38,714 nt of DNA from an uncultured Faecalicoccus sp. GTDB lineage: Bacteria; Bacillota_I; Bacilli_A; Erysipelotrichales; Erysipelotrichaceae. The position numbers were made by a program, and so were the translations under genes. Below the pieces are notes generated by a model, which searched no databases, was not told the origin of the DNA, and worked only from the letters and a program-made list of their open reading frames with translations. The stretch is from the NCBI RefSeq assembly GCF_944327125.1, contig NZ_CALVGO010000009.1:1-38714 (forward strand). The letters run 5' to 3'. Position 1 is the stretch's first letter. Each line of letters opens with the position of its first letter. Of the stretch, positions 1-22,940 are shown in pieces.

Positions 1-942
1 GATCATTATACATACGACATCCATCCTGTGGAAAAAGACAAGCTGGATTCCTTTATGAAAGAAAAAGCGTTTAAGGCGATCAATGTTACGATTCCTTATA
101 AAAAAGACGTGATCCCCTACCTTACAGAATTGGACGATGCCTCAAAGAAAATCGGAGCGGTCAATACCATCGTAAATAAAAACGGGAACCTGTATGGATA
201 TAACACAGATTACTATGGTTTTGATTATATGGTCCGAAAACACAAAGTTTCTTTTACCGATAAAAAAGTTCTTGTGTTGGGAAACGGCGGTGCCAGCCAG
301 GCCATTCAAGCCGTAATCAAAGACCATGGTGCTAAGGAAATGCTGGTGACGGATATCGTAATGAATCCAGGCATTCTAAGCATCGAGGAAGTTTATGACA
401 AACATCCCGACATCGATATCGTTGTAAACACTACTCCTTGCGGCATGTATCCCAATGTAGATTCCGCCGCTGTTGATCTGAGTCAGTTTAAGAAGATCGA
501 AGCCGTATTTGACTGTGTATATAATCCAATGGATACAGAGTTTACTTTACAGGCTAAAGAATTAGGCATCAAGGTCGCTGTGACCGGCTTAGAAATGCTG
601 GTAGCTCAGGCAAAACGTGCTTTGGAACATTTTAAAGATATTCAGATTGATGATGAAGAGATCGATCGGATCTACCGTGAGATTCTTTTAGAAACAGCCA
701 ATCTGATCACCACATGTCAAGATATCAACGTACTCAATGAATTAAGTTCGAAGATACAAAAACCTGTTGTTTATTTTCAACAAGATGAACAACAGGCCAT
801 CGAAAACAATCAGATCCTTGTCATTGACAAAAACGATATCATCAAGCATCACAAACGTCTGATTTCAAACGGGTTTATCGTGGATGGGGATTCAACGTCG
901 TTGATCCTGGAACATTTTAAAAAATCAATTCAAAATTATTGA
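1..942 (+). CDS. aroE: AroE-like shikimate dehydrogenase with degenerate kinase-like tail (5' partial)
   Basis: The reading frame is open from the first base of the window, so the N-terminus is missing; the GTG at 28 is internal and not a real start. Visible AroE landmarks are the NVTIPYK segment with the catalytic Lys, GYNTDY with the catalytic Asp, the NADP-binding GNGGASQA loop, NTTPCGM and a GLEMLVAQAK helix. The AroE part ends near base 690. About 85 further residues follow. They resemble the shikimate kinase half of the paralogue at 9934-11196 in order (the start of the domain, an L-S-K-x-x-K segment, then a NGF-I-x-D stretch), but they have no Walker A loop and no GGG motif. The gene ends at a bidirectional terminator. 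The AroE assignment is secure. The kinase-relic reading is my inference from aligning the paralogues by eye. Confidence 0.85.
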   Translation, partial: DHYTYDIHPVEKDKLDSFMKEKAFKAINVTIPYKKDVIPYLTELDDASKKIGAVNTIVNKNGNLYGYNTDYYGFDYMVRKHKVSFTDKKVLVLGNGGASQAIQAVIKDHGAKEMLVTDIVMNPGILSIEEVYDKHPDIDIVVNTTPCGMYPNVDSAAVDLSQFKKIEAVFDCVYNPMDTEFTLQAKELGIKVAVTGLEMLVAQAKRALEHFKDIQIDDEEIDRIYREILLETANLITTCQDINVLNELSSKIQKPVVYFQQDEQQAIENNQILVIDKNDIIKHHKRLISNGFIVDGDSTSLILEHFKKSIQNY

Positions 943-982: not shown

Positions 983-1744
983 TTAAATAGAGTTGTGTAA
1001 GATTTCCAACACTTTATCCAGATCCGTCACATTGATCTGTCCTGGAGCACTGGCGGCTTTGGCTGCACCAAATGTCAAACAAGAACCAAACACTTCTCCA
1101 GCCAGTCTTGAAATCACGCCGTCGGCTCCCATAGACATGGTAATGATAGGGCGATCGGCATACTTTTCATGCATATCTAAAGTTGCCTTCAACAATGTAA
1201 GCACATCGGATTTCGACTGCGGCATCAGTGCAATCTTAGGAATATCGGCCTCTTTTTCCTGCATCAATCTTAATCGGGATACGATTTCTTCATAATCCGG
1301 CGTTTTATCAAAATCGTGATTGCTCATGACAACATAAACACCATGTTCATGTGCATATGACACGATTTCTTTAACTTCATCATCTCCGGTAAAACATTCT
1401 ACATCGACAAAATCAATCCATTTGGAATCGATCATTTGTTTGTTCAAAGCCACATAATCTGCATTGGAAATGGCCATTTCCCCGCCTTCTTTGCTGGTTC
1501 TAAAAGTCGCCAAAAGAACCGTGTCCTTTAACAGAGAACCCACAAGCTCGATTGCTTTTTGGGCTTCTTTTTGATTCAGGATCTCTTTAAAATGATCCAT
1601 TCGCCATTCAATGATATCGTATTGCAATCCTTGTAAACCTTCGATTTCATTTTTTAAACCATCCAGATCTTTACCCATGATTGGAATACAAATCTTAGGT
1701 TTCCCTTTACCAAATTCTACATTTTTCACTGTAACTGTTTTCAT
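983..1744 (-). CDS. aroD: Type I 3-dehydroquinate dehydratase
   Basis: A 253-residue protein of the class I dehydroquinase family, which interconverts 3-dehydroquinate and 3-dehydroshikimate through a Schiff base. Key residues fall at the classical family positions: Glu46 (IIEWRMD), Glu86 (FRTSKEGGE), His143 (SNHDF) and Schiff-base Lys170 (IPKIAL). I chose the ATG at 1744 because GGAGG lies 5 nt upstream; the in-frame ATG 12 nt earlier contains that SD. It starts 2 nt after the TRAP binding-protein stop and is the last gene of a TRAP-aroD operon. The type I fold and the transporter context suggest a catabolic role (quinate/shikimate use), although a biosynthetic role cannot be excluded. Confidence 0.95.
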   Translation of the reverse strand: MKTVTVKNVEFGKGKPKICIPIMGKDLDGLKNEIEGLQGLQYDIIEWRMDHFKEILNQKEAQKAIELVGSLLKDTVLLATFRTSKEGGEMAISNADYVALNKQMIDSKWIDFVDVECFTGDDEVKEIVSYAHEHGVYVVMSNHDFDKTPDYEEIVSRLRLMQEKEADIPKIALMPQSKSDVLTLLKATLDMHEKYADRPIITMSMGADGVISRLAGEVFGSCLTFGAAKAASAPGQINVTDLDKVLEILHNSI

Positions 1745-1746
1745 GT

Positions 1747-2754
1747 TTACCTCCATTCAGCATTTTTTAAATAAGCATTGTATAAGTCCTCACCGACTTC
1801 ATTTTTGATATCTTCGTAAAGACTCTCGTTCAATTCTCGCATTTGTTCTTTTGTTTCATCATCCAGTTCAAGAATGGTCACGCCATTTTCAACACATTGA
1901 TTGATTCGATCTTCAATACGCTGATCCGATTGTTCTCGGGCGTATTCACTGGCGTTTTCACTGGCCTGATCAATGATCTTCTGATCTTCTTTAGAAAGTG
2001 ACTTATAGAAATCATTGTTTGTGATCAATGACAATAAATGCGGTAAGTGATTGGTTTCCACAATATATTTTTGTTGTTCATACAAGTTGGAAGAAACGAT
2101 GACTTCCACCGGGTTTTCCTGCGCATCGATCGTTTTTTGCTGCAAACCAATATATACCTCACTAAAAGACATTGGCGTAGGATTGGCATGAATATTTTGC
2201 CAGAATTTCAAGTGGTAGGAGTTTTCCATCGTACGGATCTTTTGTCCGGCAAAGTCATCGATGGACTGGATCTCTTTGTTCGTGGTCATCACACGGAAAT
2301 CCTGATCGGCAAAAGACAACAGTTTAAAACCGGCATCTTGATAGATTCCATCGACAATCGAGCGGAAATCAGGATCATCCAGAACTTCACGAACATCATT
2401 GATATCATCATAAGCCATTGGCAAGTCAAAGACGGCAAGCTGTTCCATAAAAGGAACCTGAGGCGCTGTATTCTGTACAATAAATTTTACATCTTTGGTC
2501 AAGCAGCTTTCAATCAGTTCTCTATCTCCGCCAAGTGTTGAGTTGTCATACACTTCGATCTGCATTCGGCCATCGCTCAATCTTTCCACTTCTTCGGCAA
2601 ATTTATCCGCAAAGATACTTGTGATCGTATCCGTAGTCGAAGCATGCGCCAATACCCATGGATACTTTTGAGACTGGGCAACATAATCGACATTTTTTGT
2701 ACAACCGCTAATCAGTAACAAAGTACAAAGAAGAAAGGTCAATAGTTTTTTCAT
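1747..2754 (-). CDS. dctP: TRAP transporter substrate-binding lipoprotein (DctP family)
   Basis: 335 residues with a lipoprotein signal: Lys-Lys, a hydrophobic stretch and the lipobox LISGC at about residues 14-18, so it should be anchored outside the membrane. The body matches the DctP/SBP family (W-x-L-A-H entry, NSTLGGDRELIES, IRTMENSYHLKFW, and PMSFSEVYIGLQQKTIDAQENP). The family binds organic acids and hands them to the DctQM membrane pair, driven by a sodium gradient. It lies 17 nt after dctM and 2 nt before aroD, which points to a cyclic acid such as quinate or shikimate rather than a C4-dicarboxylate; this substrate is inferred from context only. Confidence 0.9.
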   Translation of the reverse strand: MKKLLTFLLCTLLLISGCTKNVDYVAQSQKYPWVLAHASTTDTITSIFADKFAEEVERLSDGRMQIEVYDNSTLGGDRELIESCLTKDVKFIVQNTAPQVPFMEQLAVFDLPMAYDDINDVREVLDDPDFRSIVDGIYQDAGFKLLSFADQDFRVMTTNKEIQSIDDFAGQKIRTMENSYHLKFWQNIHANPTPMSFSEVYIGLQQKTIDAQENPVEVIVSSNLYEQQKYIVETNHLPHLLSLITNNDFYKSLSKEDQKIIDQASENASEYAREQSDQRIEDRINQCVENGVTILELDDETKEQMRELNESLYEDIKNEVGEDLYNAYLKNAEWR

Positions 2755-2771
2755 ATTTGTTTACACCCTTT

Positions 2772-4061
2772 CTATATCAAAGTTAATGAGATCTGTGGGA
2801 AAACACAAATCAAAATCAATGCGATCAACAATAAGATAATTTGCGGAAAGGCCTTTTTCGCAATCGTAAATACCGGAACTTCCGTAAGCCGTGAGGCAAT
2901 AAACAGGTTGACACCAATTGGCGGTGTAACAAAACCGATAGCCAGATTGACTACCATGATCACACCAAACTGGATGGGATCCATGCCGAAGCTTGACATG
3001 ATCGGTGTTAAGATCGGAGCCAAAATGAGAATTGCTGGACTTGTATCCATGACCATCCCTACGATCAGCAACAAGATATTGATTAATACCAGTACCGTAA
3101 AGGCACTTGTGAAATTCTCGGTGATAAAAGAGCCGGCCATCTGCGGTACCTGTAATAAAGTCAAGATTCTTGAGAACGCTACCGCACTTGCCAGAATGAA
3201 CAAGATCGGTGTAAAGGTTTTTAAGGATTCGATCATGATTTCTTTTAAATCTTTGATCTTGATCGTACGATAGACAAACAAAGAAATAAACAAGGCATAG
3301 AAAACCGAGATAACGGCAGCTTCCGTTGGAGAAGCAACGCCGGTATAAATACATCCCAGAATAATGACCGGTGTTAGTAAAGCCCAGAAACCTTCCTTTA
3401 ATATCGAGAAAAATCCGTTGGATCGTAAAGTATCGACTTCTTCCTGGATCCTCTCTTTATCTTCTCCGTGTTTCTTACAATAATACCAGCTATAAGCCAT
3501 CAATAAAGCCGCTATCAAGATTCCCGGAAAAACACCTGCCAAAAACAAATTGGAAACACTGGCACCGGTGGCCATACCAAATAAAATAAACGGAATGCTT
3601 GGAGGAATGATAACGCCTAAACCTCCGGCCACTGCGATCAACGCTGTGGAGAATTTCTTGTCATAGCCTAACTTAAGCATGACCGGCATACTCATGGAAC
3701 CCACCGCGGCCACCGTCGCCGGCGCACTTCCGGAGATGGCCCCATAAAATAAACAAGTCACAACGACCGCACAAGGAATTCCCGCCGTTCTCGATGCCAG
3801 AAAATACGAGAATACATCAAACAAACGTTTGGAAACCCCTCCTCTTGCCATGATGACCCCGCTTAGTACAAACATCGGGATCGCTAGCAAAGGAAAGGAA
3901 TCAATACCGCCAAACATAGAACGAATGATGAATTCCACACTAATATCAAAAGATGGATCGATCAAACTCGGTGCCACAGAGATAATTCCTAAAGCAGCTC
4001 CAATCGGTACCGACAGAAGAAGCAAAACAACAAATAAGATCATTACAATCGACGCTAACAT
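2772..4061 (-). CDS. dctM: TRAP transporter large permease (DctM family)
   Basis: 429 residues, almost wholly hydrophobic with about 12 membrane segments, which is the usual DctM length. Family signatures include GGIDSFPLLAIPMFVLSG, the AISGSAPATVAAVGSM loop, GVIIPPSIPFILFG, SPTEAAVISV and the C-terminal GFVTPPIGVNLF. Its ATG overlaps the dctQ stop (TAATG), so the two are translationally coupled. It forms the transport channel of a tripartite ATP-independent periplasmic transporter together with DctQ and the lipoprotein DctP. Confidence 0.95.
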   Translation of the reverse strand: MLASIVMILFVVLLLLSVPIGAALGIISVAPSLIDPSFDISVEFIIRSMFGGIDSFPLLAIPMFVLSGVIMARGGVSKRLFDVFSYFLASRTAGIPCAVVVTCLFYGAISGSAPATVAAVGSMSMPVMLKLGYDKKFSTALIAVAGGLGVIIPPSIPFILFGMATGASVSNLFLAGVFPGILIAALLMAYSWYYCKKHGEDKERIQEEVDTLRSNGFFSILKEGFWALLTPVIILGCIYTGVASPTEAAVISVFYALFISLFVYRTIKIKDLKEIMIESLKTFTPILFILASAVAFSRILTLLQVPQMAGSFITENFTSAFTVLVLINILLLIVGMVMDTSPAILILAPILTPIMSSFGMDPIQFGVIMVVNLAIGFVTPPIGVNLFIASRLTEVPVFTIAKKAFPQIILLLIALILICVFPQISLTLI

Positions 4062-4564
4062 TATTCAGCTCCCTCCTTTACCCACTTTTTATTCAAAATA
4101 TTATGCATTTCCAAAACGACTTGCTGGAAGGAACGAATCGTTGCCAATCCAAAGCCCAGAAGCGGTGCAAACTGCACATAGTACATCGGCAGCTGTAAAG
4201 CCGGTGACAACTGATCGGACTGAATGCTTTGGATGAGAAAAACATAGGCATGAACGCTTAAATAAAGAAAGAACACGAACAAAATAATATTCAGGATCAG
4301 TTGCAAAAACACATAGCTTTTATTTGAAAACAGATTGATGAACTGATCGATCTTGATAGAGATCCATTTTTTGATACAGTAACTGATTGAAATAAAACAC
4401 ATATAGATAAACAAATACCGGGTCAACTCCTCAGACCATGTCAATGAATTGTTCAATATGTATCGGCAAAACACCTGGATTCCCATAAGGCAAGTAATAC
4501 ATACTAAAAGAATGATCAGGAGAGTTTCTTCAAAATTATCGTCTAACCATTTTAAAATTTTCAT
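4061..4564 (-). CDS. dctQ: TRAP transporter small permease (DctQ family)
   Basis: 167 residues with four predicted membrane helices, typical for DctQ. The segment NNSLTWSEELTRYLFIYMCF is the family hallmark (W-x-E-E-x-x-R-Y). It is the first gene of the dctQ-dctM-dctP-aroD operon. The ATG at 4564 has only a weak SD (GAAGTGAT), and a promoter lies just upstream inside the terminator of the neighbouring operon. Confidence 0.92.
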   Translation of the reverse strand: MKILKWLDDNFEETLLIILLVCITCLMGIQVFCRYILNNSLTWSEELTRYLFIYMCFISISYCIKKWISIKIDQFINLFSNKSYVFLQLILNIILFVFFLYLSVHAYVFLIQSIQSDQLSPALQLPMYYVQFAPLLGFGLATIRSFQQVVLEMHNILNKKWVKEGAE

Positions 4565-4580
4565 ATCATCACTTCTCTTA

Positions 4581-4609
4581 TCTATAGAATAACATTTCTA
4601 AAAAAGCAA
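4581..4609 (-). promoter_or_regulatory. Promoter of the TRAP-aroD operon
   Basis: On the minus strand, a -35 TTGCTT (4604-4609), a 17-nt spacer and a -10 TATAGA (4581-4586) put the start near 4574, about 10 nt before dctQ. The -35 lies in the 3' arm of the upstream terminator. The sequence ATCTATAG at 4580-4587 repeats the arm of the LysR-type palindrome at 8820-8838 and overlaps the -10. Confidence 0.6.
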
Positions 4610-4634
4610 CAGCCTAGATTTTTGACTGTTGCTT
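4604..4634 (-). terminator. Terminator after the MFS gene
   Basis: A 9-bp stem AAGCAACAG/CTGTTGCTT with a 13-nt loop is followed on the minus strand by a T-run. It ends the OYE-ydiB-MFS transcript and separates it from the TRAP operon. Confidence 0.85.
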
Positions 4635-4639
4635 AAAGT

Positions 4640-5836
4640 TTAGTTGTCAGAACCAACCAAACGGGAATATCTCATATTTACAAACAGTGCCAATAAAACT
4701 CCAATTGCTGTGATTACAATATTCATCATCATGATTGAGCTGGAATCCATGGTTCCGGCCAACGTTAAGATCGTATAATTCGATAAAGAAGACATGATCA
4801 TAACGATACTGGTGATCGTTCCCTTGATTTTAGGGAACAAATCGTTACAAGTTGCCGTAACCAACTGTAAAATAACAGCACCGGCAGAATATCCGACAAT
4901 GGCCGCACCGGCAAGACACAATCCTTGTGACGGGAACATCAATACAGCAATCAAAGTAACCAGAGTAATTGCAGGATATACCAGCAAGAAACGTACACCT
5001 TTGATCTTATTGACCAAAATCGCCGTTACAACAATGGCCAGTAAGCTTCCTGAAGAATAATAAGTCTGCATGATACTTGGATCGGCCATTCCTGCCAGAT
5101 CTTTGGCAAATGTTTGGGCACAGTTTAACCAAAGCTGGAATGTTGCCGTACATGTAAAGCCGATAATGATCAATGCGATACTTTCAATTGTAAATTTAGA
5201 ATGTTTGATGTTTTCGATGAGACCTGGCTGTTTTTGACCATCGTTTGATTTTTCCTGTTTAGGAAGCGGTGCAAACAATGTCAGTACGCCAACAACAAGG
5301 ATCGCAATTCCTGTTACGATCAGAATCATATTGTAACTCATATTGTTTGCGGCAATAAATCCCAACATGAATGGAAGCAACAACTGAGCCACCGAGATAA
5401 AGAATTTTGTCCCCATGGTTGCCAGAGAACTTCTAGGTTCCAGGATCTCAACACAGGCAGGAATAACACCTGTATCCAGGAAAGAGTTGGCAGCCCCACC
5501 GAAAATAGCAGCCACATAGGCAAATGTCATATTTGGTGAGAACGCAATTCCAAAGAAGAAGATCGCATAACAAAGGATCCCAATGATCGTAGAAGGTCTT
5601 CTTCCTAATTTATCGGATAAAGGTCCAGAAAATGGCAAAGTGATCAAACGGCCCAATCCCAAAGAAGCACTTACCATTGTAACCGCTCCAATTCCGGCAG
5701 CCAAATCAGAATACCCCCATTGGGCAGCCAGGCTTTCTTTAATGACGGCCTGCCCTAGAACGGAACAACCAATTCCATGAACAAAGTATGTTAAATACAG
5801 TACAAAAGCACTGGGTAAATATTTTTTATTCTTCAT
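4640..5836 (-). CDS. MFS transporter, probable quinate/shikimate-type carrier
   Basis: 398 residues with about 12 hydrophobic helices. The major facilitator loop between helices 2 and 3 reads GPLSDKLGRRPS. A linker with charged residues (about 195-205, KQEKSNDGQKQ) splits the two six-helix halves. The start has GGGAGACGTT just upstream. It lies 18 nt after the ydiB-like gene and is probably its uptake partner; an exporter of an end product is the alternative. Having both an MFS and a TRAP system in one cluster suggests two substrates, or import plus product release. The substrate cannot be read from the sequence. Confidence 0.85.
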   Translation of the reverse strand: MKNKKYLPSAFVLYLTYFVHGIGCSVLGQAVIKESLAAQWGYSDLAAGIGAVTMVSASLGLGRLITLPFSGPLSDKLGRRPSTIIGILCYAIFFFGIAFSPNMTFAYVAAIFGGAANSFLDTGVIPACVEILEPRSSLATMGTKFFISVAQLLLPFMLGFIAANNMSYNMILIVTGIAILVVGVLTLFAPLPKQEKSNDGQKQPGLIENIKHSKFTIESIALIIIGFTCTATFQLWLNCAQTFAKDLAGMADPSIMQTYYSSGSLLAIVVTAILVNKIKGVRFLLVYPAITLVTLIAVLMFPSQGLCLAGAAIVGYSAGAVILQLVTATCNDLFPKIKGTITSIVMIMSSLSNYTILTLAGTMDSSSIMMMNIVITAIGVLLALFVNMRYSRLVGSDN

Positions 5837-5854
5837 AACGTCTCCCTAATCTCA

Positions 5855-6739
5855 TTAAAACTGAATATCCAATACATCTTTGATGTGTTCTACAGGCATA
5901 TCCTGACCTGTCCACATTTTAAAAGCAGCAGCTCCCTGATACAACATCATTCCTTCTCCATTGATGGCTTTGGCGCATCCTACTTCTTTAGCGGTTTCCA
6001 ATAACTTAGTGGTTCTAGGAGAATATACTGTATCAGCTACAATCAAATCTTTTCGAAGATAGGATGCGTCCGGGATAACCATCTGACCCTCTAACGGTTT
6101 CATACCTACGCCAGTAGCGTTGACAAAGATATAAGAGTCTTCAATTTCACGGCGCAGAGATTCATGATCGGCCAAATCATATAATGTGGCTTTACAGCTT
6201 GTTTTTTCGTTGATGTTCTTTACGTTTTGTTCAGCACGAGCCCAGAATTCATCACGGCGGTTAAAGATCGAGATTTCCTTTACTCCGTCCAATGCTGCCT
6301 GGATCTCGATGGCAGTAGCGGCTCCACCCGCTCCGGCAATCGTCATCTTTTTCCCGATCACATCGACACCGCTTTCTTTCAAGCCGGTCATAAATCCGAT
6401 TCCATCTGTGATGTGCCCAGTCAAGACACCATTGTCATTGACAACGGTATTCACTGCACCACAAAGTTCAGCGGCAGGAGACAGATGATCCAGATACTGA
6501 CCAATCACCGTTTTATTAGGCATGGATACGTTCCATCCGCGAACTTTCATAGCACGGAACCCTTTGACCGTATCTTCCAATGTAGAATTATCCACTTCAA
6601 AGGCAAGGTAAGCATAATCCAAACCTAATTTCTTAAAAGCTTCATTGTGCATCGTCGGGCTTTTTGAATGGCGAATCGGATACGCGATCAGCCCAATCAG
6701 CTCTGTATGTCCTGTAATTCGTTCTGTAATTTTACTCAT
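5855..6739 (-). CDS. ydiB: Quinate/shikimate dehydrogenase, YdiB-like
   Basis: 294 residues. Unlike the two AroE paralogues in this window, it carries the full substrate motif (AYPIRHSKSPTMHNEAF, with both Ser residues). It also has NVSMPNK with the catalytic Lys, HITDG with the catalytic Asp, GAGGAATA and FNRRDEFW. The MAYPIRHS-type start, VSMPNK and FNRRDEF are typical of the YdiB branch, which oxidises both quinate and shikimate with NAD. The C-terminus has the MLYQGAAAFKMWTGQDMP motif. The SD GGAGG precedes the ATG, and the gene is 12 nt from the OYE gene. Expected role: quinate to 3-dehydroquinate and shikimate to 3-dehydroshikimate. Confidence 0.93.
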   Translation of the reverse strand: MSKITERITGHTELIGLIAYPIRHSKSPTMHNEAFKKLGLDYAYLAFEVDNSTLEDTVKGFRAMKVRGWNVSMPNKTVIGQYLDHLSPAAELCGAVNTVVNDNGVLTGHITDGIGFMTGLKESGVDVIGKKMTIAGAGGAATAIEIQAALDGVKEISIFNRRDEFWARAEQNVKNINEKTSCKATLYDLADHESLRREIEDSYIFVNATGVGMKPLEGQMVIPDASYLRKDLIVADTVYSPRTTKLLETAKEVGCAKAINGEGMMLYQGAAAFKMWTGQDMPVEHIKDVLDIQF

Positions 6740-6751
6740 GATGATTTCCTC

Positions 6752-8746
6752 CTATAAAAGTTCTCTTTTTCTTAATACACTCAATATATTTCTGCCTTCG
6801 GCAACCCCTTCGATGATTCGACGGGCTCTGACACTGTCACCAATGTTGATGATATCTACATTTTCATCTTTATAATGTTCACACAAAGATGCATAGATTG
6901 GCGAATAACTGCGCATTCCCAGGCAAACAAATCCAAGATCAAAATCAATATTTGAAAGTTCATCGTTTACCTTGACGACAAAGTGATCTTCACAAACTTC
7001 CTGCAATGCCGTATTCACCATCACGTTGACATGATGTTTTTCGATCATTTCTTTAACCTGGGACTTGGTCACTGGATCCAGGTCCTTACCCACTTGAGGC
7101 TGCATTTCAATAATCGTTGTCTTAGCACCGCGATTTGCGAAAAATTCGACAACATCCAATCCAACAGCTCCACCGCCCACTACGGCGATATGCATATTTG
7201 AACAATCTTCCGGATATTTTTCAATGGAATCCATCATTTTCATGATGGAACTTACTTTATTATTGTCTTTATCCAAATTTTCATGAAGGCCTTTGATCGG
7301 CGGCAGCAACGGATGAGAACCTGTCGCATTCACAATGATATCGGGCTTCAGATTTTCAATAAATGGAAGTGTTGCTTCCATGGAGGTGAATGTAATCAGA
7401 TTTCTTAATTTACGCGCACGGTTGATCAAATATTCAGGGAAATAGGCCACACGGTATTTTTCCGGAATTCGGGAGATCTTACTTGCCAGACCGCCTAAAT
7501 GATCTTCTTTTTCGATCAGGAATGTAGTACATCCCACTTCGGCAGCTGTACATGCCGCTTCCAAGCCAGCGGTTCCTCCTCCGATCACTACAACGTTGCA
7601 AGGAGATTTGATTTTTTCTTTATAGTAATCAACATCTGCATTGACGGCAGGATTCACTGTACAGCGAATCGGCCGATTCAAACCAATTCGATGCCCAGCA
7701 CATCCAATGTTACAAGAGATACACTTACGAATCTCGTCTTCTTTTCCATATTTAACTTTGTTTGGCCAGTTCGGATCGGCAATCATCTGACGTCCCATTC
7801 CGATAAAATCGGCATCCCCTTTTTCCAGGATCTCTTCGGCAACCTTTGGATCACGGATATTTCCTGTTGTCATGACCGGTTTATTGAATTTATCCTTGAC
7901 CGCTTTGGCCATATAAGATCTCCATCCATCCGGCAGATAATTGGCATCGATCTGATAATGAATGGAATCCGATAAAGCCGCAGACACATCGATCATATCC
8001 GCTTCTTCCTGGAAGTATTCAAGAAGCTGCAGGGTATCTTCCAGTGTATTTCCGCCTTTCAGCATTTCATCGGCACTGATTCGTAAAATGATTGGATATC
8101 TTGGTCCTACTGCCTGGCGAACCTTCTCCATGACCAGTTTCGCAAAACGAGCGCGATTTTCCGGTGTTCCCCCATACTCATCGGTACGATTATTTGTCAG
8201 CGGGCTTAAGAACTGACTGATCAAATAAGAATGTCCTGCGTGGATCTCAATCATATCAAATCCAATGATCTGAGCTCTTTTGGCAGCGGCTGCATAATCA
8301 TCGGCAATCGATTCGATCTCTTCGACGCTTAATTGTCTTGGGATCGATCCCCCTTTTTTGTTTGGCAGATTGCTTGCACTGACTGGCTGCATACCAATAC
8401 GGCTTTCAACCGCGCTGGCGCCGGAATGATTCAACTGAATCGCAATCTTGGTTCCATGTTTATGGACATTTTCACAAAGTTTAAAAAAGCGAGGAATAAA
8501 ATTATCGTGATCAATTCGAATCTGTGTAGTTCCGTTACTTCCTTCCGGATACTTAACACAAGCGTTTTCTACAATGATCAATCCCGCTCCTCCCTGAGCT
8601 CTTTGTTCGTAATAATTGATATGTAGAAAACTCATTCCTCCATCGGTTTCACCAAAGTTTGTTCCCATGGGCGTCATAACGATTCGATTGTTCATTACGA
8701 CGTCTTTGATTTGAATAGGACTAAACAGTGAATTGTATTTCTGCAT
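6752..8746 (-). CDS. FMN/FAD/[4Fe-4S] NADH:flavin oxidoreductase (OYE, 2-enoate reductase type)
   Basis: 664 residues in three parts. Residues 1 to about 360 form an Old Yellow Enzyme TIM barrel with the EIHAGHSYLISQFLSP active-site stretch and TNNRTDEYGG. An iron-sulfur motif CISCNIGC plus a fourth Cys 13 residues on follows. After it come two dinucleotide folds (VVVIGGGTAGLEAA and IAVVGGGAVGLDVV). This layout is that of 2,4-dienoyl-CoA and 2-enoate reductases, which reduce C=C bonds next to a carbonyl or carboxyl. The ATG at 8746 is chosen because GGAGGAGA precedes it; an ATG 24 nt upstream lacks one. As first gene before ydiB, its substrate could be 3-dehydroshikimate, an enone and enoate; that is inference. 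Confidence 0.9.
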   Translation of the reverse strand: MQKYNSLFSPIQIKDVVMNNRIVMTPMGTNFGETDGGMSFLHINYYEQRAQGGAGLIIVENACVKYPEGSNGTTQIRIDHDNFIPRFFKLCENVHKHGTKIAIQLNHSGASAVESRIGMQPVSASNLPNKKGGSIPRQLSVEEIESIADDYAAAAKRAQIIGFDMIEIHAGHSYLISQFLSPLTNNRTDEYGGTPENRARFAKLVMEKVRQAVGPRYPIILRISADEMLKGGNTLEDTLQLLEYFQEEADMIDVSAALSDSIHYQIDANYLPDGWRSYMAKAVKDKFNKPVMTTGNIRDPKVAEEILEKGDADFIGMGRQMIADPNWPNKVKYGKEDEIRKCISCNIGCAGHRIGLNRPIRCTVNPAVNADVDYYKEKIKSPCNVVVIGGGTAGLEAACTAAEVGCTTFLIEKEDHLGGLASKISRIPEKYRVAYFPEYLINRARKLRNLITFTSMEATLPFIENLKPDIIVNATGSHPLLPPIKGLHENLDKDNNKVSSIMKMMDSIEKYPEDCSNMHIAVVGGGAVGLDVVEFFANRGAKTTIIEMQPQVGKDLDPVTKSQVKEMIEKHHVNVMVNTALQEVCEDHFVVKVNDELSNIDFDLGFVCLGMRSYSPIYASLCEHYKDENVDIINIGDSVRARRIIEGVAEGRNILSVLRKRELL

Positions 8747-8771
8747 AAGTTCTCCTCCATTTCCAAACAAT

Positions 8772-8857: not shown

Positions 8858-9760
8858 ATGAACTATAATTACTTAAAATACTTTCGGGTCCTGGCAAAAA
8901 CGGAACATTATACGCACGCTTCAGAAATGCTCAACATCTCCCAACCATCCCTTTCGCATGCGATCAGTGAATTGGAAAATGAATTGGGCGTGACCTTGTT
9001 CGAGAAACAAGGTAGAAACATTCGTCTGACCAAATACGGAAAATTTTACTATGACTATGTCGAACAGGGACTTACAGAAATCGAACATGGAAATAACTTT
9101 ATCAAATCACTGGCCAGTGTTGATTCTGGTACGATCGACCTTGGATTTATTTATACATTGGGAGCTTATTATATTCCCAATGTAATGAAACGATTTTTAA
9201 AGACTCACCCGGGCATCCATTTTAACTTGTATCAAAATACTTCGCCTACGATCATAAAAAACTTACGGGATCAAACTTTTGATGTCGGTTTTTGTTCCAA
9301 AGTTGAAAACACCAACGATATCAACTATATTCCGGTCGTAAAAGAAGAAATTGTACTGGTTGTATCCAAACATCATCCGTTAGCCAAATACGACTCTATT
9401 GATCTCACAAAAATAAAGGACAGTGAAAAATGGATCCTGTACTCCAATCGATCCGGCCTTCGCCCCTATCTGGACCAGGTCTTTAAAACGGTTCGAATCC
9501 AGCCTTCCATCCAGTGTGAGGTGGTTGAAGATTCTGCCGCCCTGGGCCTTGTGGCAATCAATTACGGTATTGCTTTGGTACCGAAAATCGATATGATCAA
9601 GTTATATGATGTGAAAGACATAAAAATCGAAAATAAACTGGAAGATCGAACCATCTACATGGCCACGTTAAAAAATCGGTATTTAACCCCCTCTGTCAAC
9701 AAATTTATCAACTATTTGGTGCATTATACCTTTGACAATCAAAAGCCTGAAAACGAATGA
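8858..9760 (+). CDS. LysR-family regulator, probable quinate/shikimate sensor (QuiR-like)
   Basis: 300 residues. The N-terminal winged helix (NYLKYFRVLAKTEHYTHAS then LNISQPSLSHAISELENELG and LFEKQGRNIRLTKYG) is a textbook LysR DNA-binding domain. Residues about 90-300 form the periplasmic-binding-like effector domain (GTIDLGFIYTLGAYYIPNVM). The start is fixed by the family N-terminus, yet no SD precedes it, and a TATAAT sits 6 nt upstream. It is divergent from the OYE-ydiB-MFS operon and shares the palindromic operator with it. In Listeria a LysR protein, QuiR, activates shikimate/quinate operons in response to shikimate; a similar role here is inferred from context. Confidence 0.92.
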   Translation: MNYNYLKYFRVLAKTEHYTHASEMLNISQPSLSHAISELENELGVTLFEKQGRNIRLTKYGKFYYDYVEQGLTEIEHGNNFIKSLASVDSGTIDLGFIYTLGAYYIPNVMKRFLKTHPGIHFNLYQNTSPTIIKNLRDQTFDVGFCSKVENTNDINYIPVVKEEIVLVVSKHHPLAKYDSIDLTKIKDSEKWILYSNRSGLRPYLDQVFKTVRIQPSIQCEVVEDSAALGLVAINYGIALVPKIDMIKLYDVKDIKIENKLEDRTIYMATLKNRYLTPSVNKFINYLVHYTFDNQKPENE

Positions 9761-9933: not shown

Positions 9934-11196
9934 ATGAAAACAGGTTTGATTGGACAGGATCTTAGAGGTAATTTCACCCAGCGCGTATCGAATGCCTTTG
10001 GTCTGTATGATTACGAAATGAAGGAAATGACTCCCGAAGAAACGATACAGTTTGTAAAGGAGAAAAAATTTGAAGGTATCAATATCACCTTCCCTTACAA
10101 GCAGCTGGTTTATGATTACGTAGACATCCCCAGTGAAAACGCAAAGAAAATCGGTGCCGTGGATACGATCGTAATCAAAGATGGAAAGTCTTACGGATAC
10201 AACACCGACTATCAGTCCTTCTACTATTTGATCAAACGCCACAACATAGATTTTAAAGGCAAAAAGATCCTGGTATTAGGTAACGGGGGTTCCAGCGCCG
10301 CGGTCCAGGTTGTTGCTAAAGAAATGGGCGCAAGCGAAATCCATGTCGTGGACATCAATGAAAGTCATGGAAGCATCTCTTATGTCGAATGCTTTGCGAA
10401 ACACCTGAACTCGGATATTGTCATCAACACTTCACCGGTCGGCATGTCTCCGGACATTTCCAACGCTCCTATTGCCATGTCGTTATTTTCTAATTGTGAA
10501 ACCGTCATTGACTTGATCTACAATCCTATATTGACAACGTTAGGTTTTAATGCCCAGGAACTTGGGATCCAGCGTGTGATTGGCATTGAAATGGAAGTAG
10601 CACAAACGAAATATGCCGTTGAACTGATTACAGGAAAGACCATCTGTGATGATAAAATTGATGAAGTGATTCACGATCTTCTCATTGAAAAATGTAACAT
10701 CGTATTAATTGGAATGCCTAGTGCGGGAAAGACCTCTATCGGACAAATCCTTTCAAAACGATTGAATAAACGCTTTATCGACCTGGATGATGTCGTCGTG
10801 GAAAAGGCAAAAATGCCGATTCCCGAGATCTTTGCACAAAGTGGAGAGGCCGGATTCAGAAAATTGGAATCGATGGTTGCCCTGGAACTTTCTACATTAA
10901 ACAATGTCATTATTGCCACGGGCGGCGGAACCATTAAGAATAAAGTCAATATGGATAATCTTAGACTGAACGGGATCGTGATCTTTATCGACCGCGATCT
11001 GGATAAACTGATTTCCAGCGATCCAAACCGTCCTCTGTCTTCCAGTAAGGAAGCCTTAAAGATCATGCACAAGGAAAGATATCCGCTGTATCAGAAATAT
11101 TCCAATGTTGTCGTGCTCAACAATGAAGAAATGGAAAAAACCGTCGATGAGATCATCAAGGCTTACCACGAAACAGCGACAAAAGCCGTTATTTAA
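9934..11196 (+). CDS. aroEK: Bifunctional shikimate dehydrogenase-shikimate kinase fusion
   Basis: 420 residues. Residues 1 to about 245 are AroE-like: NITFPYK (catalytic Lys), YNTDY (catalytic Asp), GNGGSSAA (NADP loop). Residues from about 250 are a complete shikimate kinase: Walker A GMPSAGKTS, IDLDD, GFRKLE, ATGGG, lid DPNRPL and RYPLYQKY. The substrate loop of the dehydrogenase is unusual: after GLIG the normal HSxSP is replaced by GNFTQ, so the two Ser that hold the shikimate carboxylate are absent. The SD AAAGGAG precedes the ATG. DAHP synthase follows 15 nt later. The two domains would catalyse consecutive steps, 3-dehydroshikimate to shikimate to shikimate-3-phosphate. Confidence 0.93.
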   Translation: MKTGLIGQDLRGNFTQRVSNAFGLYDYEMKEMTPEETIQFVKEKKFEGINITFPYKQLVYDYVDIPSENAKKIGAVDTIVIKDGKSYGYNTDYQSFYYLIKRHNIDFKGKKILVLGNGGSSAAVQVVAKEMGASEIHVVDINESHGSISYVECFAKHLNSDIVINTSPVGMSPDISNAPIAMSLFSNCETVIDLIYNPILTTLGFNAQELGIQRVIGIEMEVAQTKYAVELITGKTICDDKIDEVIHDLLIEKCNIVLIGMPSAGKTSIGQILSKRLNKRFIDLDDVVVEKAKMPIPEIFAQSGEAGFRKLESMVALELSTLNNVIIATGGGTIKNKVNMDNLRLNGIVIFIDRDLDKLISSDPNRPLSSSKEALKIMHKERYPLYQKYSNVVVLNNEEMEKTVDEIIKAYHETATKAVI

Positions 11197-11211: not shown

Positions 11212-12225
11212 ATGATTATCACGCTAAAGAAAGACGCTAAACAAGATCAAATCGATCATTTGATACATCGCTTTGAAAATATGGGTCTCCAAGTTACGGT
11301 GATCTATGGTGAAAACTACAACGTATTCGGACTGGTTGGCGATACGACAAAAGTCGATGAAAAAAATGTCATGGCCAACCCTATCGTTGCCAATGTACAG
11401 CGGGTAGACGAGCCATATAAACTGGTCAATCGAAAATTTCATCCTGACAACACCATCGTGGATGTTAACGGAATCCAGATAGGCGGACAGAAGATCGTCA
11501 TGATTGCCGGGCCATGCAGTGTTGAAGGAAAAGAACAGATTACACGGATCGCCAAAGAAGTCAAAGAGTGCGGCGCTGACATGTTAAGAGGCGGTGCCTA
11601 TAAACCAAGAACAAGTCCGTATGCCTTCCAGGGGCTTGGAACCGAAGGAATCAAAGATTTATGTATCGCCCGTAAGCAGACCGGATTGCCTGTCGTCAGC
11701 GAACTGATGGCCGTAGAACATCTGGACGAATTCATCGAGAATGTAGATGTGATACAGATCGGCGCAAGAAATATGCAGAACTTTGATTTATTAAAAGCGG
11801 TGGGAAAAACCAAAAAGCCCGTTTTATTGAAACGTGGGCTTGCCAATACGATCAGTGAATGGATCATGGCTGCCGAATATATCATGTCGGAGGGAAATCC
11901 AAATGTGATCTTCTGCGAAAGAGGAATAAGAACTTTTGAAACCATGACACGAAACACTCTGGATCTGGCCGTGATTCCCATTATAAAAGAAAAGACCCAT
12001 CTGCCTATCATCATTGATCCAAGTCATGCCGCCGGAAACTGGAAGCTTATTGAATCTTTGTCTTTGGCATCCATTGCGGCAGGAGCTGACGGTTTGATCA
12101 TTGAAGTACACGATAATCCTGAGTGTGCCTGGAGCGATGGCGATCAGAGTTTGAAACCGGACAAATATGCCAGTTTGATCCAAAAAGGAAAAAAAATAGC
12201 CGAAGTGGTCGGCCGAAGAATATAA
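11212..12225 (+). CDS. aroF: 3-deoxy-7-phosphoheptulonate synthase with N-terminal regulatory domain
   Basis: 337 residues. The first 70 or so form the small ferredoxin-like domain seen in Thermotoga-type DAHP synthases, which senses Tyr/Phe for feedback inhibition. The barrel follows with MIAGPCSVE, LRGGAYKPRTSPYAFQG, IGARNMQNF, KPVLLKRG, RGIRTFE, IDPSHAAG and EVHDNPECAWSDG. It condenses phosphoenolpyruvate and erythrose-4-phosphate, the entry step of the shikimate pathway. AGGGGGAAAATTT precedes the ATG. Being controlled by Tyr/Phe at the protein level fits the aromatic leader peptide upstream. Confidence 0.96.
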   Translation: MIITLKKDAKQDQIDHLIHRFENMGLQVTVIYGENYNVFGLVGDTTKVDEKNVMANPIVANVQRVDEPYKLVNRKFHPDNTIVDVNGIQIGGQKIVMIAGPCSVEGKEQITRIAKEVKECGADMLRGGAYKPRTSPYAFQGLGTEGIKDLCIARKQTGLPVVSELMAVEHLDEFIENVDVIQIGARNMQNFDLLKAVGKTKKPVLLKRGLANTISEWIMAAEYIMSEGNPNVIFCERGIRTFETMTRNTLDLAVIPIIKEKTHLPIIIDPSHAAGNWKLIESLSLASIAAGADGLIIEVHDNPECAWSDGDQSLKPDKYASLIQKGKKIAEVVGRRI

Positions 12226-18927: not shown

Positions 18928-19848
18928 TTAAGATTCAACGATAAGATTATAGATTCCGGCATCGCCTGCGATTTGATAAAACAGCTTCATTTGATCATCG
19001 CTATAAAGTTTCGGATTCTTTTTAAAACAATACTCCATATCCAAATAAGCGTATTTTGACTTTGCCAAAGGATTATAGTTCAGTATTTCGTAGTGCACTT
19101 GAGAATAAATAGAACTTAAAAAGGAAGCAATTTGTTCAATGTTTTCCTTTGTGGCGGTCATACCGGGAATCAGCGGAGTGCGAACAATCACTTGATCTTT
19201 CTTAGCACACGTCAATAAATAACGCAGGTTTTCTAAAATAATGACATTATCTACACCCGTACATTCTTGATGCATGGAGGCATCATATATTTTACAGTCC
19301 GCATAGATCTGGTCCAGATACGGCAAGGCTTTTTCCAGCCATTTTCGATTCACGTAAAGACTTGTCTCAATAGCGGTATGAATCCCCTCTTCTTTGCATG
19401 CCGTCAAAAGCGACAATAAACCTTCCGGCTGTAAGAAAGGCTCCCCGCCAGAGATCGTAACTCCGCCTCCATAACGGAAGAAAGACTCATCTTTTTTGAT
19501 TTCATGCATCAACTCTGAAATCGAATAAGAAACAGAATCAAATTGTAAGGCCGTAGTCGGACAAGCATCAACAATCGTTTCCCAGTCTTCCGAAGCTTTT
19601 CGATCCAGTAAGATCTTTCCATCTTGAAAAAGTACACCCTGATTTTGGCACGCATGAACACAGCTTAAACAATGGATACATTTATTCTCCATATATAAAA
19701 CTTGTCTATTTGGGAACAGCCCTTCGGGATTTTGACACCATTTACAACGCAGAGGACAGCCTTTTAAGAAGACTGTGGTTCGAATCCCGCGTCCATCATG
19801 GGTTGAAAACCGCTTAATATCAAAGACCTGCAGATTAGATATTGTCAT
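18928..19848 (-). CDS. Glycyl radical enzyme activase (radical SAM)
   Basis: 306 residues. The radical SAM motif CPLRCKWCQNPEG (CxxxCxxC) follows the family start STHDGRGIRTTVFLKG. An inserted ferredoxin motif CIHCLSCVHAC comes next. The second cluster motif usual in this group is eroded to a lone DACPTTAL, so one accessory cluster is likely. GGGVTISGGEPFLQPE is also diagnostic. The protein abstracts hydrogen from the Gly of its partner. The ATG at 19848 lies inside the end of the glycyl radical enzyme gene (14-nt overlap), with AGGA just upstream, so translation is coupled. Confidence 0.92.
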   Translation of the reverse strand: MTISNLQVFDIKRFSTHDGRGIRTTVFLKGCPLRCKWCQNPEGLFPNRQVLYMENKCIHCLSCVHACQNQGVLFQDGKILLDRKASEDWETIVDACPTTALQFDSVSYSISELMHEIKKDESFFRYGGGVTISGGEPFLQPEGLLSLLTACKEEGIHTAIETSLYVNRKWLEKALPYLDQIYADCKIYDASMHQECTGVDNVIILENLRYLLTCAKKDQVIVRTPLIPGMTATKENIEQIASFLSSIYSQVHYEILNYNPLAKSKYAYLDMEYCFKKNPKLYSDDQMKLFYQIAGDAGIYNLIVES

Positions 19849-22168
19849 AAGATGTCCTTGCGATGATCTCGTTTTGTAGATCACCGGCCAATTCCGTAAA
19901 ATACGCTGTATACCCGGCAACCCGAACCGTTAAGGAACTGTATTGTTCCGGATGTTTCTGGGCTGCCAGCAGATCTTCTCTACGAACGACATTAAACTGA
20001 ATATGAGGAATTTCCAGGTCGACAAACGTTCTCAAAAAACTACAGAATTTTTGAATTCCAATCTCCGTCTTGAAAAATTCTGGCAAAAACTTCATATTCA
20101 GTAAACCGCCATTGGTGGTGCAATCGTCATTCAATCGAGACACCGACTTCAATACGGCTGTCGGTCCTTTGAGATCACGTCCATATACAGCCGATAATCC
20201 CCCATCTGCCAAAGGCGTCTGTGATAAACGGCCATCGGCACTGGCGCCTACATTGTGTCCCATAGGAACATGGGCGCTTACTGTATACATTCCTGTATGA
20301 TAAGGGCCGCCTCTGTAATTTGTGTAGGAACGTAAGGTGTCTCTAAAAAACTGTGCCCATTTTGCCCCCAGCTGATCGACCCATTCAACATCATTTCCAT
20401 ACTTTGGTACACGATTCAATAACATTTGACGCATAACTTCCTGTCCCTGGAAATTATCTTTAAGAGCCTCTTCAAGGTCTTTGGCACGAATGCGTTTTTG
20501 ATCATAGACCATCATCTTGATAGCAGCCAGCGAATCCGCCAGATTGGCCACCTGGATCATTTGGATCCCGGAAAGATTATAATGAGCCCCACCCTGGGTC
20601 ACATCCATTCCCTTTTCCATACAATCATCGATCACACCGCTTAGAAAAGCCGTGGGAAGAATATCGATATGGGCTTTTTCGACTTCTTCGCAACATGGGA
20701 TCATTTTATCAATAAAAAACAACATCATCCTTTGAAAGGCCTGCTCAAGTTCTTGAAAAGTCTTATAGGTGGTCAAAGAACCCAAATCCGGTCCTAATTG
20801 CGCATTGGTGATCAAACATCGTCCATGATTCAACGTGAGCTCTAAGACTTTGTTCATATTGAACATGGCAGCATCCGACCATCCTAAATTATTCCCCTGG
20901 GTCGTCAGTTCCACACAGCCTACGATCGCATAATCTTTTGCGTCTTTAGAAGAGATGCCCATCTTTTCCATTTCATGGACAATAGCTTTATCATTAAAGA
21001 ATTGAGGCATTCCGCTTCCCTTGGATACGACACGCACCGCATGTTTCAACAGTTCATCGTTTGTATGTTCATGAAGACGGACACTCAAATTCGGCTGCGG
21101 CAAACCAAGGTCTTCCTGTGCCTGTAAAAACAGATGACTGAGTTCATTACAGAAATCATTTCCTTTTTCATCGATACCGCCCACCGCGATATTGAATCCA
21201 ATTGGAAAGCCCGCAAAATATTTTGCGGAGTTTTGATTGCGAAGATAAACGATCTGATTGAACTTTAACCATAAACATTCAATGATTTCCAAAGCTTCCC
21301 GATCGTTGATCCGTAATTCTTCAATGTCTTTTTTATAATAAGGATATAAAGTTTGATCCAGACGTCCTGGTGAGAAGCTGGAAGCATTGCTTTCCATATG
21401 AAGCACGACAAACAAGAACCACAAAGATTGAACGGCTTCATGGAACGTTTGCGCCGGCCTTTGGCTCAAGTTTTTACAGATTTCGGCAACCTTTTTCATG
21501 TCGGATGCATGGTTGGGATTTAAAAGAGATTCATGGATCAAAAGATCATGATAACGCATCATAAAATCTTTTACCCCATCCATCACTAAAACGACCGATC
21601 GATAAAAATCTTTTTGTTCCGGCAAACAAGATTCCAAATGCGATAATGCCTCATTTTTTAGAATGCTGGGGCCTTTTTCCAGCCATTCTTTTACATTGGG
21701 ACAAATATGTCCCTGAGCATGATCTTTTTGATTGATCTTTACAACTTTACTGATCGCATCAATTTCATTTCCAGCTCGCAAGCGCAATACATCTTCCAGG
21801 CTTTTTCCCTTCCAGTAAGGAAGGATGACATTACGGAACGTCTCAATGTCTTTTGGACGGACCAAAAACCGATCCTGGGCCCTGGTAGAGATCGTTTCCA
21901 ATTCATCATTGACCCATGAGATGCCGCTTTCGGGAAAAACTACGCCATAACGAACCCCTTTTGTCCGGTTGCCGACAATCAGTTCTTCGGGCTCGATACC
22001 AATCTCCAGTTCATGAAGAGCGTTATACAAAGAATAAGCACGTTTCATCGGTATAGAATCAGCTTCATGTTCTTTGTACGTCCTTGTGATGATCAAAGCT
22101 TGTTCAATGCTTACATAACGCGGTTGAGAAAGCATTTTATTTTTTAAGGTTTCAATACGGTTATTCAT
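19835..22168 (-). CDS. Glycyl radical enzyme, dehydratase/lyase type, substrate unknown
   Basis: 777 residues. The C-terminal radical loop is VRVAGY with Gly752. The catalytic Cys is in AIVGCVELTTQG; the C-x-E pattern marks dehydratase/C-X lyase members and excludes true pyruvate formate-lyase, which has Cys-Cys. Other landmarks are GNRTKGVRYGVVFPESG near the N-terminus, GGAHYNLSGIQ and NLADSLAAIK. GAGGAGAAC precedes the ATG at 22168, which overlaps the DeoR gene end by 8 nt. The gene order regulator-enzyme-activase suggests substrate-induced fermentation of a polyol-like or hydroxylated compound. I could not match it to choline, glycerol, propanediol, hydroxyproline or isethionate enzymes with confidence. 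Confidence 0.9.
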   Translation of the reverse strand: MNNRIETLKNKMLSQPRYVSIEQALIITRTYKEHEADSIPMKRAYSLYNALHELEIGIEPEELIVGNRTKGVRYGVVFPESGISWVNDELETISTRAQDRFLVRPKDIETFRNVILPYWKGKSLEDVLRLRAGNEIDAISKVVKINQKDHAQGHICPNVKEWLEKGPSILKNEALSHLESCLPEQKDFYRSVVLVMDGVKDFMMRYHDLLIHESLLNPNHASDMKKVAEICKNLSQRPAQTFHEAVQSLWFLFVVLHMESNASSFSPGRLDQTLYPYYKKDIEELRINDREALEIIECLWLKFNQIVYLRNQNSAKYFAGFPIGFNIAVGGIDEKGNDFCNELSHLFLQAQEDLGLPQPNLSVRLHEHTNDELLKHAVRVVSKGSGMPQFFNDKAIVHEMEKMGISSKDAKDYAIVGCVELTTQGNNLGWSDAAMFNMNKVLELTLNHGRCLITNAQLGPDLGSLTTYKTFQELEQAFQRMMLFFIDKMIPCCEEVEKAHIDILPTAFLSGVIDDCMEKGMDVTQGGAHYNLSGIQMIQVANLADSLAAIKMMVYDQKRIRAKDLEEALKDNFQGQEVMRQMLLNRVPKYGNDVEWVDQLGAKWAQFFRDTLRSYTNYRGGPYHTGMYTVSAHVPMGHNVGASADGRLSQTPLADGGLSAVYGRDLKGPTAVLKSVSRLNDDCTTNGGLLNMKFLPEFFKTEIGIQKFCSFLRTFVDLEIPHIQFNVVRREDLLAAQKHPEQYSSLTVRVAGYTAYFTELAGDLQNEIIARTSYDNI

Positions 22169-22940
22169 CTTTGTTCTCCTCATAATAGATTTTGACATCA
22201 TATTTTTGTGCATATTTAAGATTTTGAGCGGATGGCTGTACATCTGTGATGATCCCATCAAAATCACTTACCGCTGCATACTGATAGTTGCCAATTTGAT
22301 TGAATTTATCCAGATCACTCAGTAAAAAAGCCTGTTTTGAATGTGAAAGAACCGTTTGTTTGGTAATGCCATCGGCAGCCATATATGTATAGACCGCATT
22401 GTTCTTCATATCGATGGCCACAACACCCATAAACGCATAGTCAAAGTAGAAATTACTCAACACGGCATCGGCCATGCTCCCGACAAAACCGTCCTTGCCA
22501 TAATCGAACTCACCGCCGATGAAAATGGTATTGATGGAAGTATTCGCAAACAAATTGATAACTTCCAATGCATTGGTCACGACTGTGATCCTTAGATTTT
22601 TGTTGACGATCAAACGAGCCAGTTCTACGACCGTGGTACTGATATCCAAAAAGACAATGCTTCCTTCCTTGATTTGATCCATTGCCGTTTTCGCAATCTT
22701 CTTTTTTGCTTCAATATTCACGGATTTTCGCTGGGCCGCTGTTTTTCGATGGACATTTTCTTTTTCTAAAATAGCGCCTCCATATATTTTTTTACATTTT
22801 CCCTGTTTTTCCAGAGCATTCAAATCTTTTCGAATCAAATCCTCGGTCACAGAAAAGCGCTCGCTTAACTCTTTGACACGAACACTTCCTTTATCCATTA
22901 ATTCTTTTACGATCAATTCTTGTCTTTCTTCCACAAACAT
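22161..22940 (-). CDS. DeoR-family transcriptional regulator
   Basis: 259 residues. The N-terminal helix-turn-helix (RQELIVKELMDKGSVRVKEL, then TEDLIRKDLNALEKQG) and the KKIYGGAIL link are DeoR hallmarks. The C-terminal sensor domain has DISTTVVELARLI and IFIGGEFDYGKDGFVG, the sugar-phosphate-isomerase-like fold that usually binds a phosphorylated metabolite. The ATG at 22940 follows GGTGATATT. It probably controls its own operon with the glycyl radical enzyme and activase, and its stop overlaps the enzyme start. Confidence 0.92.
   Translation of the reverse strand: MFVEERQELIVKELMDKGSVRVKELSERFSVTEDLIRKDLNALEKQGKCKKIYGGAILEKENVHRKTAAQRKSVNIEAKKKIAKTAMDQIKEGSIVFLDISTTVVELARLIVNKNLRITVVTNALEVINLFANTSINTIFIGGEFDYGKDGFVGSMADAVLSNFYFDYAFMGVVAIDMKNNAVYTYMAADGITKQTVLSHSKQAFLLSDLDKFNQIGNYQYAAVSDFDGIITDVQPSAQNLKYAQKYDVKIYYEENKDE

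Follow-up and report, generated by a model that had tools for sequence, protein, structure and literature searches.

Reciprocal loss of opposite halves in two shikimate dehydrogenase-shikimate kinase fusions as a probable division of labour in Faecalicoccus and its relatives

Introduction

Why would one bacterial genome carry two genes with a shikimate dehydrogenase (AroE) domain, one fused to a shikimate kinase (SK) and the other ending in a short tail at the place where the kinase would begin? The question is raised by a 38,714-nucleotide stretch of DNA from an uncultured Faecalicoccus sp. (the window; its genome is G000), in which the tailed gene, here called T, lies at positions 1-942 and the AroE-SK fusion, called A, at 9934-11196. 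A sequence-only reading of the window had taken the tail for a decayed kinase domain. Throughout, AroE residues carry what we take to be the numbering of the Escherichia coli enzyme and SK residues what we take to be that of the Mycobacterium tuberculosis enzyme; the roles given to Walker A, Arg58 and the lid arginine are likewise our assumption.

The tailed gene retains the dehydrogenase residues

The open reading frame of T (1-942, forward strand) is cut at its 5′ end by the contig edge. Its start codon is supplied by contig C29 of the same genome, which shares a 77-base end overlap with the window, and the completed protein has ~336 residues. The AroE part (1..693, forward strand; PF08501 match) has its first 23 residues on C29. 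It is followed by the tail (694..939, forward strand), annotated here as a putative shrunken, non-catalytic SK domain on the basis of profile alignment with controls, structure prediction and purifying selection, and by the stop codon (940-942, forward strand). The tail measures 82 residues, slightly fewer than the 85 first given. The AroE part is 44% identical to the AroE half of A over 234 residues, in agreement with the homology first noted, and the BLAST alignment ends at the AroE-SK junction.

A profile of the tail detected T in eight of 272 family genomes at E≤2.2e-25 (next best match: 0.004). The carriers are G000, G001 and G002 (genus code g1), G004, G206, G208 and G209 (g2), and G015 (g13). 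Faecalicoccus pleomorphus (G003) has no tailed gene; it has an intact fusion.

All substrate, catalytic and cofactor residues of AroE are present in the window's T, two substrate serines being read from the C29 overlap. The substrate serines, the catalytic Lys-Asp pair, the Asn86-type residue and the C-terminal Gln are kept in 8/8 T wherever sequence exists (the N-terminus is missing in T of G209). The AlphaFold (AF2) model of T has a pLDDT of 85.8 and matches the solved AroE structure 3fbt (Z 24.0, 224 residues, 3.0 Å). No gene other than T matches PF08501 in G004 and G015.

The second cofactor strand ends in an Asp in T (window 352-354), likewise at the matching place in A, and in the fusions G065, G068, G069 and L046; G003 and L014 have Ser-Arg there. 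Judging by the residues, the Asp in place of Ser-Arg may be a sign of NAD rather than NADP use.

The fusion has an intact kinase half and an altered dehydrogenase half

The SK half of A (10696..11193, forward strand; PF01202, E 4.9e-40) possesses equivalents of Walker A (GMPSAGKT), the Asp pair, Arg58, GGG, the lid Arg-Pro and Arg136. It is the only strong SK match in the window's genome, and the SK catalytic positions checked are all present in 7/7 A.

The AroE half (9934..10695, forward strand) had been taken as normal, which the residue comparison contradicts at the substrate site: the window's A has Asn13, Thr15 and Asp77 in place of the Ser, Ser and Asn found in 98-99% of 130 comparison AroE sequences. 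It keeps Lys56 and Asp92 (the catalytic pair) and GNGG. As the set of substrate serines and Asn86-type residue is changed in 7/7 A, with the serines lost in all of them, this half was not classed as a normal AroE. Five A (G000, G001, G002, G206, G209) share the same change, with Asn and Thr for the serines and Asp for Asn86; all five carry Asn, Thr, Asp, Phe and Thr at sites with 98-99% conservation across the 130 comparison rows, and none has lost the catalytic Lys or Asp, the last Gln or the cofactor glycines. The catalytic Lys is lost in G004 and G208. Since five of the seven A retain the Lys-Asp pair and the cofactor motifs, loss of activity is not certain there.

The two halves of A were also compared in their rate of change. 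Identities of the AroE half and the SK half are 83-90% vs 87-91% in three Faecalicoccus pairs, 77 vs 87% between G206 and G209, and 37 vs 71% between G004 and G208. In Faecalicoccus the altered half is thus about as conserved as the kinase half and is not junk.

The residue losses are complementary across genomes

In seven of the eight T genomes there is also a fusion A, its SK half intact and its AroE half altered. The eighth, G015, has no fusion. It possesses a bare SK (L243 6775-7293; a 173-residue frame) beside a divergent aroD, on the contig that carries T and ~9 kb away from it. This kinase groups with fusion-type SKs, apart from five Clostridia SKs (99 SH-aLRT), and is a possible end stage of fission. 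A ribosome-binding-like site lies just before its start; a clean excision at the linker was considered and discarded, because the apparent linker residues are read as this site.

Two genomes, G206 and G209, have a third fusion, B, in tandem with A (L064 5412-6749; L067 7015-8289). Its SK half has the motifs, and its AroE half is altered differently from that of A (catalytic Lys to Gln). Counting both kinds (7 A, 2 B), 9/9 fusions in T genomes have the SK motifs and lack the substrate serines, with one lid position of B reading Arg for Pro in the alignment used. Among comparison fusions all six AroE residues are found in 74/76 rows and all seven SK residues in 73/76; of the two AroE exceptions, one row is truncated at its 5′ end and the other is no AroE fusion. 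YdiB-type AroE rows, L027 and rows in which a half is short are not part of these motif counts.

Of the 125 family genomes with a match at E≤1e-25, only seven have more than one, and these are the seven with T and a fusion. An even phylum sample of 392 genomes gave matches in 94, with more than one match in G000 and G015 only. A genome with two intact fusions was seen in neither the family search nor the phylum sample. Contamination or binning was rejected as the source of the two copies, as T and its partner share a contig in five genomes (G000, G002, G004, G208, G209). Each of the two clades, that of A and that of T, looks like the product of one event, so the co-occurrence amounts to few independent cases (at most A, B and the bare SK of G015).

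The complementary loss in the two copies is seen at the residue level only, and from these residue patterns T is likely the shikimate dehydrogenase and A likely the shikimate kinase. The pathway is expected to run, as aroC and two EPSP-synthase-family genes are present in 10/10 genomes checked. A YdiB-like dehydrogenase, a possible supplier of AroE activity, occurs in G000, G001, G206 and G209, which weakens the case for T being essential in these four.

The two genes come from different fusion lineages

A and T both trace back to bifunctional fusions of AroE and SK as found in Erysipelotrichaceae and relatives. They share the order of the halves and the junction with the fusions of F. pleomorphus, Amedibacillus dolichus and Longicatena caecimuris; unlike T and A, the comparison fusions carry both sets of catalytic residues.

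In a tree of 43 AroE parts (without the B rows, and without A of G004 and G208, which are fast rows) T is nested as (G069,(G068,T)), with support of 100/99 for T+G068+G069 and 88/89 for T alone. The A clade (100/100) groups with other intact fusions. A quick tree of 96 rows agrees. A single T+A clade is rejected (p-AU 0.018), and one clade of A with the F. pleomorphus fusion is borderline (p-AU 0.048). T and A therefore come from different fusion lineages and not from a simple local duplication. This removes the view of T as a duplicate of the window's own fusion, and with it a local tandem duplication; two fusion lineages joined by transfer, or by old paralogy with losses, fit better.

Gene neighbourhoods vary. 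In the window T adjoins aroD, a type I dehydroquinase gene (983..1756, reverse strand; PF01487), which also neighbours T in G001, G002, G004 and G208. Directly after A lies a gene (11212..12225, forward strand) that we take from its sequence to encode a DAHP synthase; such a gene follows A or the canonical fusion in many relatives, a synteny shared by the window. The order in G004 and G208 is hpf-T-aroD-A-DAHP synthase. In G015, T stands between DAHP synthase and aroC, like the fusion of G068.

In the window transport and redox genes separate aroD from A. This cluster (1747-8770) contains a TRAP transporter (DctP, DctM, DctQ), an MFS transporter, a YdiB-like dehydrogenase and an FMN/FAD oxidoreductase, and is adjoined by a LysR regulator (8858-9760). 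It looks like a cluster for uptake and use of quinate or shikimate. In G065 the same cluster surrounds an intact fusion.

The tail resembles a kinase without its catalytic motifs

AroE proteins without an SK half stop near the junction: 54 of 55 such rows, mostly from Lachnospiraceae, end at most 17 residues past it. The tail of T is therefore extra. It has no Pfam match. Walker A, Asp34, Arg58, GGG, the lid Arg-Pro and the C-terminal Arg (Arg136) were found in 0/8 tails, so the tail was not classed as a kinase; the motif table confirms the P-loop, GGG and lid as missing, as had been noted, and adds the C-terminal Arg. Asp34, GGG and Arg136 are described as substrate-site residues of SK (PMC7144000).

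When the eight tails were aligned as a profile with 82 SK halves (hhalign), the score was 22.4 (E 0.0027 for one comparison) and the alignment was collinear from the junction. None of 200 column shuffles of the tail profile reached this score (mean 11.4, sd 2.1, max 17.8). The reversed tail scored 11.1, and 33 decoy windows from neighbouring genes and AroE scored at most 18.6 (mean 11.1). That the tail lines up with parts of the kinase half, as the sequence-only reading held, is upheld by a score above all shuffles and decoys. An SK profile gave 0.8-3.7 bits on the eight single tails, which is noise level. The tail profile found no SK among PDB sequences and none in the 272 family genomes, where high scores went to the eight tails only.

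AlphaFold was also run on the tail alone, with an alignment of three tail rows and no kinase sequence. The model (pLDDT 78.9, pTM 0.63) has alternating strands and helices, a beta-alpha fold, and in the full AF2 model of T the tail blocks have pLDDT values of 77-97. Of the 996 chains aligned with VIA-align, those ranked highest by Foldseek, the best for the tail are the shikimate kinases 1e6c and 2pt5 (Z 5.8, 78-81 residues, 2.5-2.6 Å), followed by a gluconokinase (Z 5.4) and the SKs 1kag, 3vaa and 4y0a (Z 5.3-5.0). The Z of the tail against SKs is at most 5.8, and values below 8 can reflect a common arrangement. The aligned range spans the first to the last residues of the SKs, as internal deletions would give. 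Foldseek alone places an XPB/TFIIH helicase first (E 0.08) and the SK 1shk fifth (E 0.24), with E-values that are not significant. A tail fold unrelated to kinases would speak against the sequence-only reading; the VIA-align ranking, led by two SKs, points the other way.

The tail is kept under purifying selection

Conservation of the tail had been proposed as a check, and it is borne out in eight genomes with three genus codes. Its pN/pS is 0.24-0.55 in four pairs, with upper 95% bounds of 0.37-0.76 (uncorrected for saturation; dS is saturated in several compared pairs). In 8/8 genomes it is 80-84 residues long and has no internal stop. When an 82-codon frame was simulated without selection, 2.5% of runs still had it open at 1 substitution per site. 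Identity between tails is 44-78%, vs 74-92% for the AroE parts of the same T (six pairs). Taken with the pN/pS data, the identities suggest constraint on both remnant halves (the tail of T and the altered AroE half of A), though not of equal strength. The earlier choice between a pseudo-kinase that was kept and a relic after duplication can thus be narrowed: conservation under purifying selection fits "kept" better than "mere relic".

From the sequence comparisons, the models and the tree, the tail of T is very probably an SK remnant. Could it instead be new sequence acquired after the kinase was lost? The failure of single-sequence and profile searches to link tail and SK, together with the helicases that lead the Foldseek ranking, is what such an origin would have in its favour. 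It is improbable given the profile-profile score, which exceeds every shuffle and decoy and is collinear from the junction, the SKs as best VIA-align chains, and the position of T, which is nested inside intact fusions and has its tail where they have SK. Less probable still is that the tail and the altered AroE halves are neutral relics that are merely decaying. The tail does change more quickly than the AroE part to which it is attached, as decay would have it, but its pN/pS is clearly below 1, and an unbroken frame of 80-84 residues in all eight genomes is at odds with the few frames left open in the simulation.

A probable history of reciprocal loss

The history that we favour, with a probability of about 0.72, is that two AroE-SK fusions divided the work by reciprocal loss and that the remnants were kept as folded modules. 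The ancestor would have had two fusion genes of different lineages in one genome. In T the kinase half would have shrunk to an 82-residue folded remnant without catalytic motifs, with the dehydrogenase half left intact; in A the kinase half would have stayed intact and the dehydrogenase half would have lost its normal substrate-binding residues. The two proteins could then complement each other, with T making shikimate and A phosphorylating it. Selection would have retained the remnants as folded, non-catalytic modules (altered in Faecalicoccus A), probably with a role in stability or folding, assembly or regulation.

The main rival concerns A in Faecalicoccus, where the AroE half may have gained a new function as a dehydrogenase on another substrate, T being kept since A had lost the old reaction. 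The uniform changes in five A around an otherwise preserved catalytic and cofactor apparatus, and the slow evolution of this half in Faecalicoccus, nearly that of the SK half, make it a possibility to be taken seriously. It is nevertheless doubtful, as the orthologous A of G004 and G208 lack the catalytic Lys and evolve fast (37% identity), so that the activity is dispensable there, and as A in G002 lacks the adjoining transport and redox cluster of the window. T and A might also form a heteromeric complex, with the two remnants as docking surfaces that hold the active halves together as the old fusion did. Selection on both remnants and the high confidence of the tail in the model of T agree with this picture, which is otherwise plain inference; it is rather unlikely, since G015 has T and a bare SK and thus no altered AroE half for docking. 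A bolder extension of reciprocal loss, which we hold only tentatively, is that the fusions met in one genome and split the pathway, after which the kinase stump and the re-tooled dehydrogenase half were recruited to new roles, such as forming a heteromeric channel or letting the former dehydrogenase pocket regulate the kinase. Relatives would then preserve every stage: intact fusion, reciprocal loss, one half far decayed, and full fission (G015).

Parallels and implications

In plants, single-activity paralogues with the complete tri-domain architecture are described as descendants of bifunctional CPS/KS diterpene synthases (PMC10600500). There too a fused enzyme with two activities led to single-activity paralogues. 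Unlike that case, T and A represent a bacterial fusion of primary metabolism with two unrelated folds, one remnant is at half length, the two genes are of separate lineages, and a bare kinase has been reached in G015. RelA is described as retaining an HD domain that is catalytically dead, for which a role in stability or signalling has been proposed, and the synthetase of SpoT as weak (PMC5633626). These are likewise paralogues of a two-activity enzyme; they differ in that RelA and SpoT concern the opposing reactions of one regulator, whereas T and A concern consecutive pathway steps and both copies are altered at the motif level. Reciprocal decay of an AroE-SK fusion was not found in the titles and abstract openings of the literature searched, which does not prove its absence.

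Gene fusions are usually treated as one-way. Here, in the aromatic amino acid pathway, a fusion seems to have been undone by the loss of opposite halves in two copies and not by cutting of the gene. Several stages are alive in related gut bacteria, which makes the retention of dead domains testable. There is also a warning for annotation: T and A both carry AroE domains, and only one of them is likely the enzyme.

Other rearrangements and minor observations

The SK half of G066 appeared to be a natural truncation and was rejected as one, because the frame stops where the contig does. In L255 (969-2345; PF01636, E 6.5e-18) AroE is joined to an APH-type phosphotransferase domain, as it is in L253 and L254 (both assigned by eye); the three belong to genomes of another family (G586, G539, G609). 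These genomes also have an ordinary SK, so the APH-type domain is not a simple replacement. In G137 a fusion (L235 1300-2382) has an SK half that, as assembled, ends before the lid. Farther along the window (19835-22267) lies a gene for a glycyl radical enzyme of the pyruvate formate-lyase type.
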